Assembly (NCBI RefSeq): GCF_014635585.1
Contig: NZ_BMDC01000001.1
Coordinates: forward strand, 1,030,139 to 1,094,138
Direction of reading: 5' to 3'
From: Rothia aerolata
GTDB taxonomy: Bacteria; Actinomycetota; Actinomycetes; Actinomycetales; Micrococcaceae
DNA: 64,000 bases
The notes beneath the pieces were generated by a model. The model was not told the DNA's origin. It saw only the letters and a list, made by a program, of their open reading frames with translations, and did not search any database. The stretch's first letter is position 1, and each line of letters begins with the position of its first letter. Positions 17,623 to 45,798 of this stretch are shown here, piece by piece. Both the position numbers and the translations under genes were made by a program.

Positions 17623-17688
17623 GTTTGTACAGGGTTATCTCACACGTACAGAGTTACCTCTGTACACCCGAGACAATCCTGTACAAAC
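17623..17688. repeat. GTAC-quartet palindromic element A
   Basis: The outer arms GTTTGTACAGG (17623-17633) and CCTGTACAAAC (17678-17688) are exact complements and sit symmetrically around an inner perfect hairpin GTACAGAG-TTAC-CTCTGTAC (17646-17665). The segments between also pair mostly, with one wobble. The four GTAC cores start at 17627, 17646, 17662 and 17681 (spacing 19-16-19), and a further GTAC lies at 17713. The same spacing recurs in the element at 45351. Confidence 0.8.
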
Positions 17689-17731: not shown

Positions 17732-17765
17732 AAAAGAGCCCGCCACCCCAAGGGGCAACGGGCTC
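17732..17765 (-). terminator. Terminator after nusG
   Basis: GAGCCCG (17736-17742) pairs with CGGGCTC (17759-17765), with inner CCCC/GGGG pairing. It is followed on the minus strand by UUUU. It lies 15 bp after the nusG stop and separates secE-nusG from rplK. Confidence 0.85.
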
Positions 17766-17780
17766 TCAGAGCTAAAGTTT

Positions 17781-20504: not shown

Positions 20505-20557
20505 AACGGTGGATTTTAGGCTTAAATCCGGCTGATTTAAGCCTAAAATCCACCGTT
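20505..20557. repeat. 53-nt perfect palindrome after the aminotransferase gene
   Basis: 24-bp arms (20505-20528 and 20534-20557) with sequence AACGGTGGATTTTAGG... are exact complements around the loop CGGCT. There is no U-run on either side, so it differs from the classical terminators in this window, though it may still terminate transcription. No second copy was noticed here. The rest of the gap up to pfkA holds the pfkA promoter. Confidence 0.75.
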
Positions 20558-31789: not shown

Positions 31790-31857
31790 CGAGGGGTCAC
31801 ATATCGTTCAAAAAATAGCTAATTTGGGGTGTTTTTTGAATGATATGTGACCCCTCG
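31790..31857. repeat. 68-nt palindromic element, copy 1 (inverted pair)
   Basis: Arms CGAGGGGTCACATATCGTTC... pair with their near-perfect complement ending GACCCCTCG around a central AATTTGGGG-containing spacer, with A6 and T6 tracts inside the arms. Its reverse complement equals 32864-32931 except for one base. The stop codon and last dozen codons of the DUF559-like gene lie inside it. Confidence 0.9.
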
Positions 31858-32786: not shown

Positions 32787-32863
32787 AGCTAAATTTTTGC
32801 ATTTAGATGTTGAATTCAACAGTAGTTTTTAAAATCTGTGGATAACTCCCCTCCTTCTCTCCG

Positions 32864-32931
32864 CGAGGGGTCACATATCGTTCAAAAAACACCCCAAATT
32901 AGCTATTTTTTGAACGATATGTGACCCCTCG
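32864..32931. repeat. 68-nt palindromic element, copy 2 (inverted pair)
   Basis: Same palindrome as 31790-31857 in opposite orientation, 67 of 68 positions identical after reverse complement. Here the arms extend to CCGCGAGGGG/CCCCTCGCGG (32861-32934). Together the copies bracket about 1.0 kb containing only the DUF559-like gene. Confidence 0.9.
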
Positions 32932-33010
32932 CGGGAGGGAGGTTAAGCTTTCATTTCAGCATAAGAAAAGCGCCTATCTTCCCAGCTCGATAAAAGGTTA
33001 GACTGGGGTC

Positions 33011-45084: not shown

Positions 45085-45350
45085 CCCGCCCCCTGCTCCC
45101 GGGGGTGTCAGGATCAGGGAAGAAGAAAAGGGCTATAGGCAGAAAAGTATGTCCCGCCCCGCATCAACAACCACCAGGCAACCAGCCCCACAACTTAGCC
45201 CCAGAAGCTAACCCCAGTCCTCCCCCACCCAAAACTCCAGCACCTGCAATATGGACCAGTCGTGAATTTTGAGCTGAAACAAGCTCTCGGTACACATAGA
45301 TTCCTGTTAGTAGACCTCAGGTACAAGCAAATTCCCGTGAAGAGGCCAAA

Positions 45351-45410
45351 GGTACACGTGAAGTCCCCAGGTACAAGACAATACTTGTACTCGGGGACTT
45401 CACTTGTACC
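45351..45410. repeat. GTAC-quartet palindromic element B
   Basis: A 60-nt hairpin: GGTACA (45351) pairs with TGTACC (to 45410), GTGAAGTCCCC with GGGGACTTCAC, and GTACAAG (45371-45377) with CTTGTAC (45384-45390) around ACAATA. GTAC cores start at 45352, 45371, 45387 and 45406, spaced 19-16-19 exactly as in the element at 17623. Two more cores lie upstream at 45290 and 45321 (31-base steps). Confidence 0.85.
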
Positions 45411-45461
45411 CTAGATAGCCCGGCAAGAAGAAACCTATACCTTGTCATCGCTGAGCTTTCC

Positions 45462-45519
45462 CGAGAGGCCATTTTTATACCGAAAATCGGAGAAAAACGG
45501 TATAAAAATGGCCACTCGG
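45462..45519. repeat. 58-nt inverted-repeat element, copy 2
   Basis: GGCCATTTTTATACCG (45468-45483) and CGGTATAAAAATGGCC (45498-45513) form a perfect 16-bp inverted repeat. The whole element matches the reverse complement of 21963-22020 at 54 of 58 positions; this copy has the better-paired arms. Confidence 0.85.
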
Positions 45520-45557
45520 CGATTATGGCAGACCGTGCAGTTGCCCCTGTGCTCGTC

Positions 45558-45640
45558 GAGTCGCCGTTTCAACGACGTTTCGCCGGTTCGTTACCGGCGA
45601 AACGTCGTTGAAGCGGCGTCTGTAATCTAAGCGGCGACTC
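45558..45640. repeat. 83-nt nested palindrome
   Basis: Outer arms GAGTCGCCG (45558-45566) and CGGCGACTC (45632-45640) enclose a perfect 19-bp inverted repeat TTCAACGACGTTTCGCCGG (45568-45586) with its complement (45594-45612) and a seven-base loop. No U-run follows. No other copy was noticed in the window. Confidence 0.8.
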
Positions 45641-45751
45641 AGTGCGCTTGCCTATTCTTGAAAAACACCCAGCATGTTAGAAGAGGCGCTTTTCTGCCGC
45701 TATCGCGGATGACAAGCCCAGGGAGCACACTTTTCTTCCCACAATCACAAG

Positions 45752-45783
45752 AAAAAGGGCGTCTTCCTGACCGGAAGACGCCC
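45752..45783 (-). terminator. trxA terminator
   Basis: GGGCGTCTTCC (45757-45767) pairs with GGAAGACGCCC (45773-45783), followed on the minus strand by UUUUU. Confidence 0.9.
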
Positions 45784-45798
45784 CTCTACTAAAACCTA

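Follow-up and report, generated by a model that had tools for sequence, protein, structure and literature searches.

The window, the whole 64,000-nt stretch of DNA analysed here, corresponds to C1:1030139-1094138 of the Rothia aerolata genome (G000) and contains two palindromes with four GTAC cores each. In the palindrome at 45351-45410 the cores start at 45352, 45371, 45387 and 45406, and in the one at 17623-17688 they start at 17627, 17646, 17662 and 17681. Re-reading the coordinates in the window returned exactly the starts and the 19-16-19 spacing reported in the initial annotation. The pattern GTAC-N15-GTAC-N12-GTAC-N15-GTAC has two exact matches in the window and a maximum of zero across 100 dinucleotide shuffles. 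When each strand was folded as single-stranded DNA, both hairpins reached z values of -7.0 to -10.2, and none of 200 shuffles was equally stable. A search of the whole window with Rfam 15 at gathering thresholds returned five tRNAs as the sole matches and nothing for the hairpins.

The hairpin at 45351 belongs to the type designated A. Its palindrome (45352..45409, forward strand; pattern match, typing and folding) has four inward-facing boxes at 19-16-19 and lies in a non-autonomous, MITE-like element of the IS1249 type with an A-type box array (45130..45741, forward strand). The consensus of this element matches at 45130-45723 with 84 % identity (query 1-590), and the right end was placed by eye. 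Two more GTAC boxes are found on the forward strand outside the palindrome, one at a distance of 62 bp (GTACACATAGATTCC, 45290..45304), as also occurs elsewhere in types A and B, and one at 31 bp (GTACAAGCAAATTCCC, 45321..45336). Exactly 31 bp past the final GTAC of the palindrome, at a place occupied by GTAC in the A/B consensus, the sequence reads ATAC (45437..45440, reverse strand), which is probably a decayed box. A palindrome scan detected a second and a third palindrome of the element at 45461..45519 and 45562..45618.

The hairpin at 17623 is of type C. This solitary palindrome, TTT GTACAGG..CCTGTAC AAA (17623..17688; sequence, typing and folding), carries four GTACAG boxes at 19-16-19 (17627..17684; pattern match and typing) and occupies the spacer between two genes which, from their ORF translations, we take to be rplK and nusG.

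A palindrome family in Rothia aerolata

Both hairpins of the window are members of a mostly intergenic palindrome family of about 80 copies in a Rothia species. In the genome of 2,462,803 bases the exact pattern was found 73 times and its reversed control not at all, which rules out a chance origin and bears out the earlier reading as a repeat family. The typed set, taken from relaxed searches and fetched stretches, comprises 79 distinct copies that passed the pairing filter, namely 70 exact copies and nine with one or two GTAC mismatches. Three of the 73 exact copies fell under the 20-of-27 pairing filter and were left out; by our reading two resemble type A and one type C. Based on their arm sequences, the 79 copies were divided into types A (23 copies, GTACAAG..GTCCC), B (21, GTACACCTGTATTCCC), C (19, GTACAGGGTTGTCTC) and D (16, GTACACATTGAGAGC), with palindrome lengths of 58-66 bp across the family. 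Types C and D are short, mostly solitary units, and types A and B lie inside an element of about 0.6 kb. The earlier statement that the bases between the cores differ completely is correct for the two hairpins compared (A at 45351, C at 17623) but does not extend to the family, since the arms of A and B are partly alike by eye and the four types have more in common than GTAC. When a phage origin was considered, a loose 16-base pattern matched seven stretches in viral_contigs, about the chance level by estimate.

Identical palindrome copies were observed 3.3 kb apart (L119 1501 and 4846) and 1.2 kb apart (L109 1501 and 2726), which suggests local duplication. A second long palindrome with GAGGGGTCACATATCGTTC arms is present at 31790-31857 and 32861-32934 of the window, about 1 kb apart, with similar arms in L039, and probably represents a further repeat family in this genome. 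The palindrome AACGGTGGATTTTAGGC.. at 20505-20557, whose arms resemble those at five fetched loci, two of them overlapping, is probably a hairpin that exists in multiple copies and has no GTAC boxes.

Carrier element, genomic placement and relatives

Aligned with one another, the flanks of types A and B form a single element of about 0.6 kb that includes further palindromes. Its consensus has BLAST matches in six of the 35 genus genomes, including left-end matches at contig ends in G017 and G030 and two inside a contig in G028. About 90 bp of the left end are common to the A/B elements and an IS1249-family element of G028, and the right end is alike by eye. The first G028 copy measures about 1.26 kb, has similar ends (GGGTTATAGGCAGAAAAGTGTGTCCC), is flanked on both sides by CAGCTCTC and contains an uninterrupted 378-codon frame matching the NCBIfam IS1249 family transposase (NF033544, E 1.1e-120) and Pfam Transposase_mut (1.4e-9). 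The second copy is flanked by CTATTTGA and is split by about 1.3 kb of different insertion-sequence-like DNA, from about L094 3994. Both insertion sequence copies are surrounded by 8-bp target duplications; in R. aerolata, no clear 8-bp duplication was evident in the ten pairs with both ends that were listed for eight MITE loci. On this evidence, the most plausible reading of types A and B is as cargo of a non-autonomous element of the IS1249 type. Types C and D have no IS1249-type ends around their unit. An 18-base end motif with up to four mismatches was found at two of 15 C loci (L007 and L008, both adjoining an A element) and at none of three D loci, and with a looser 10-base end, four of the 19 C copies and none of the 16 D copies had a match at a distance of up to about 400 bp, one in each case. 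By eye, the surroundings of C and D copies showed no target duplication, including one of 5 bp.

Of 47 copies examined with a simple codon-usage gene caller, 46 were free of overlapping genes and one coincided with a low-scoring frame. The neighbouring genes are convergent in 16 cases, divergent in two, in tandem in 23 and undetermined in five, with a few copies sharing one spacer; the window itself has eight convergent and nine divergent spacers of nearly equal total length. REPs are described as lying chiefly between unidirectional and convergent genes (PMC3733652), and the Rothia palindromes have the same bias.

Among the 34 other genus genomes, the exact pattern occurs once each in G020 and G030 and in none of the remaining 32. 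A stricter 20-base pattern applied to genome_contigs recovered one stretch, from Rothia nasisuis 69RC1. With both strands counted and up to 150 candidates scored per genome, a covariance model of the mixed hairpins (E<=0.01) yielded matches in 14 of the 35 Rothia genomes, at least 150 in R. aerolata and one to nine in each of the others, several of the latter being ordinary hairpins that lack the box layout (L065, L067, L068, L070). Other relatives have the exact or nearly exact geometry with different box letters, such as GTACCG in G030, GTACCCGC at 20 bp in G007 and GTACAC with ATACA inside in G032. Across the bacterial family to which Rothia belongs, the model was positive at E<=1e-6, with stricter filters and among the candidates scored (up to 22 in the genomes listed), in four of 245 sampled genomes, all of them Rothia (one of 32 genera).

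Synteny was compared for six loci in five relatives, which are 68-86 % identical in the longer matches, so that exact empty sites are only roughly readable; L014 and L110, whose flanks are not adjacent in the relatives, and L031, whose flanks were unmatched, were dropped. The 45130 element is absent from the syntenic place in G017, G028, G030 and G010, and for G020 the match was confined to the right flank, with no hit in a palindrome scan of this stretch (L148). Near the 17623 place, G017, G028 and G030 have an unrelated palindrome of 56-58 bp, the (near-)perfect nusG-rplK palindrome GCATTTATTCTGGTTTACCCGC.. (L136 411-466, L137 442-497, L138 490-547), while the genes are 4.9 kb apart in G020 and a palindrome scan of the G010 stretch (L139) gave no match. 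The C copy at L005 stands opposite a GTACC..GGTAC hairpin in G028 and G030, but not in G017. Hairpins with GTACC at both feet and no inner boxes occur at more than one place in G028 and G030 (L102 8042-8093, L144, L145). The initial annotation had named two outcomes that would speak against it, a pattern no more frequent than chance or a lack of conservation at syntenic loci. None of the compared relatives has either hairpin at the syntenic place, but the 73 copies against zero in the control exclude chance.

Box layout, conservation and arm pairing

Each palindrome contains four oriented GTACA boxes, all pointing at the centre. The A directly after GTAC is found in all 158 outer and all 158 inner boxes of the 79 copies. 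The letters past GTACA differ among the types and tend to match between the outer and the inner box, and the first two letters after GTAC are the same in both boxes in 38 of 46 arms for type A, 38 of 42 for B, 31 of 38 for C and 23 of 32 for D. Because arm pairing forces the left arm to match the right but not the outer box to match the inner, this agreement is not required by the stem. Across 13 types, four of them from R. aerolata and nine represented by hairpins in seven further Rothia genomes, a set that was hand-picked after viewing and is not fully independent, outer and inner boxes agreed in the first letter in 13 of 13 (permutation P 0.0016), in the second in eight of 13 (P 0.005) and in the third in four of 13 (not significant). 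In this set, L058, L069, L072 and D are alike, and L059, L061 and L066 have spacings of 20 or 17 bp. L056 and L071 were omitted as members of type A, L063 and L064 for their different spacing, and L065, L067, L068, L070 and L073 because GTAC is out of place; L149 was likewise outside the set. A C at box position 15 is not a general box feature, since it is present in the outer box of 155 of 158 arms but in just 35 of the 73 boxes that lie some 31 bp beyond the palindrome.

Boxes outside the palindrome recur at exactly 31 bp on 20 of 46 sides in type A, 33 of 42 in B and 6 of 32 in D, against a background of 0.0021 per position. Type C has five outside boxes at 30-34 bp over 38 sides. Further boxes at 62 bp were seen in A and B, and type A sometimes has three boxes in a row at 19-20 bp. 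This layout is compatible with sites for an oligomeric DNA-binding protein or a transposase-like enzyme; the initial annotation had proposed a dimeric DNA-binding protein or such an enzyme. At the ends of Tn7/Mu/Tn402-kind elements, transposase sites are arrayed facing inward at intervals of about 20 bp, and the inward-facing boxes at 19-20 bp, at times three in a row, are what fused ends of such an element would offer. This origin is nevertheless very unlikely, because Mu-transpos_C (PF09299) has no match in the R. aerolata genome and matches in only two of the 35 genus genomes, although it was also unmatched in 14 of 14 control genomes, and because no 5-bp duplication was seen by eye around C or D.

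The GTAC boxes resist decay in types A, B and D, and less so in type C. Copies with every box intact number 22 of 23 in A, 20 of 21 in B and 15 of 16 in D, or 57 of 60 together, where part of this conservation is built in because the copies were retrieved via GTAC patterns. If GTAC decayed neutrally, most copies with few mismatches would bear one or two of them, which those of A, B and D do not. The copy lists are complete to two pattern mismatches for A and to one for B and D, and letters other than GTAC also count in the search patterns. The binomial chance of the intact counts is 2.5e-13 (A), 1.8e-8 (B) and 2.3e-6 (D) at 10 % divergence, and 1.1e-5, 3.6e-5 and 6.4e-4, respectively, at 4 % divergence and to two mismatches. 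Among the matches listed, 13 of 19 type C copies are intact, with P of 0.14 at 4 % and 4e-5 at 10 % divergence. Agreement with the majority in the hairpin columns other than GTAC is 0.81 for A and 0.95 for B, and in the A and B flanks 0.60-0.77, ragged ends included. For the boxes outside the palindrome, which were not used for retrieval, the 4-base window ranks among the top three on its own side in three of five cases and 22nd in two. Recent spread from few source copies could partly account for the intact boxes, as the B arms are only about 5 % off the majority.

An alternative is an explanation without any protein, in which passive palindromes were spread by an IS1249-type element and kept by template switching, and GTAC seems conserved because the copies are young and GTAC-retrieved. 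The position of A and B inside an IS1249-type element, the inversion of the centres described below, and the boxes of type C, kept no better than 4 % divergence allows, agree with it, and template switching has been described as able to make and keep hairpins (PMC8794818). We regard it as unlikely, since the 57 intact copies stand beside A columns that are 19 % and A/B flanks that are 23-40 % off the majority (ragged ends included), since C and D have the same geometry without element ends, and since template switching evens out left and right arms but not outer and inner boxes.

The arms pair in 95.6 % of the cells in 33 mixed copies, and double changes number 229 compared to 76 in shuffles. 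Within single types, there are 46 double changes in A compared to 20 in shuffles, and 23 compared to 6 in D. These data resemble textbook covariation and are therefore a warning case for RNA searches that take covariation as proof. The asymmetric centre of type A occurs in both orientations relative to the surrounding element, 15 versus four of 20 oriented copies with one symmetric, in addition to three unoriented copies, and two B copies have mirror-image centres. Arm homogenisation together with spacer inversion is described as a signature of template switching between inverted repeats (PMC8604942), which has also been proposed as creator and keeper of hairpins (PMC8794818). Matched arms alone are thus no proof of selection for folding, and the combination of matched arms and flipped centres fits template switching at the DNA level. 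Of the suggested selection on structure plus GTAC motifs, the constraint on the motifs stands, while the structural part is weaker than it appears.

A function as transcribed RNA at gene 3' ends, whether as terminators, mRNA stabilisers or RNase III sites with GTAC as part of a favoured RNA stem, would suit the 16 convergent and two divergent placements, the very stable stems and the terminator-like A-tract and T-tract flanks of hairpins L057, L060 and L069 from other species. If the function resided in RNA from one strand, G.T but not A.C mismatches would be expected within a copy. No such skew was found in the 33 copies with at least two mismatches of either kind, where neither is dominant (P=0.42); the pooled counts of 52 G.T and 60 A.C carry little weight since the strand is arbitrary. 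By eye, the feet of C are mostly flanked by TTTT/AAAA (TTTT before, AAAA after) and those of D by TTYG/CRAA-like sequence, and no T-tract was seen after C or D copies on either strand. Terminator scans around the two window copies returned terminator-like sites only at 17761-17773 and 45753-45787, none of them on the palindromes, and the latter is a separate stem beyond the A element. In addition, extra boxes lie outside the stem, and a stem does not need identical letters in outer and inner boxes. The RNA fold considered in the initial annotation is therefore unsupported, and an RNA element was rejected as the main reading and is left with a small probability.

A proposed DNA-level reading and comparison with known systems

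The best reading is that of REPIN-like palindromes recognised as DNA by a protein whose existence we infer from the boxes. In its full form, to which we assign roughly even chances, interspersed DNA palindromes were amplified in one Rothia species and are read as DNA by a putative box-binding protein, with arms kept by template switching and types A and B spread by an IS1249-type element. The unit would consist of two inward-facing pairs of an oriented GTACA box with a type-specific extension, spaced 19 bp within the arm and 16 bp across the centre, often with more boxes at 31 bp. A and B would spread as cargo of the IS1249-type element, and C and D, mostly solitary units, by means of some spreading enzyme, for which the searches with PF01797 and PF09299 gave no candidate in this genome. 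The arms would stay complementary because, as the pattern of changes suggests, one arm serves as template for the other when replication switches templates, an event that also inverts the centre. The boxes would stay intact because a sequence-specific protein binds at least four of them as an oligomer. This putative reader may be a DNA-binding protein of the host, or it may be enzymatic and serve to mobilise or convert the palindromes.

A bolder claim, which we make only tentatively, is that the palindromes represent a new kind of element with a code of 19-16-19 GTAC spacing and outriggers at 31 bp, read by a putative Rothia protein. The box preference would shift between types and species (GTACAAG, GTACAC, GTACAG, GTACCG), and the other letters would mostly be turned over by template switching. 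To our knowledge, such palindromic families are little described in this bacterial group, and a literature search of titles and abstracts returned no report of such repeats in Rothia. If a protein does read the boxes, this would be a palindromic repeat family without a Y1/RAYT transposase. The copies also provide a natural series for separating selection on the fold from DNA template switching as causes of paired arm changes.

Among known systems, insertion sequences of the IS1249 kind (IS256/Mutator-type transposase) and their MITEs are similar, since the A/B elements have ends like those of an IS1249-family element in G028. In contrast to these, the IS1249-family element of G028 has no box array or palindromes that were seen near its ends, and C and D are without such ends. 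The ends of Tn7/Mu/Tn402-kind elements are similar in their inward arrays with a period of about 20 bp; the Rothia arrays, however, meet in the middle of a palindrome without genes between them, and the corresponding transposase domain is unmatched in the genome. Integron attC sites are imperfectly palindromic and combine variable arms with conserved short boxes and conserved pairing. The Rothia palindromes are alike in their kept boxes and pairing with variable arms, whereas box letters and spacing differ from those of attC.

A further likeness is to REPIN/REP sequences and their RAYT, which are described as small extragenic palindromes in tens of copies, rare between divergent genes, with inverted units in a hairpin (PMC3733652, PMC3116915). 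It could be argued that the Rothia palindromes, as extragenic palindromic doublets in many copies like REPINs and REPs (PMC3116915, PMC3733652), are themselves REPIN-like non-autonomous elements moved as single-stranded DNA by a Y1/RAYT-type or other HUH enzyme. We consider this very improbable, since Y1_Tnp (PF01797) has no match in the R. aerolata genome at E<=0.001 and matches in three of the 35 Rothia genomes, the hairpin-rich one not among them. Furthermore, REPs have an unpaired foot tag, GTAG or CGTC (PMC3733652), which was not seen by eye in the Rothia palindromes. Unlike REPINs and REPs, the Rothia palindromes are defined by constant letters that form four internal GTAC boxes at fixed spacing within 58-66 bp.
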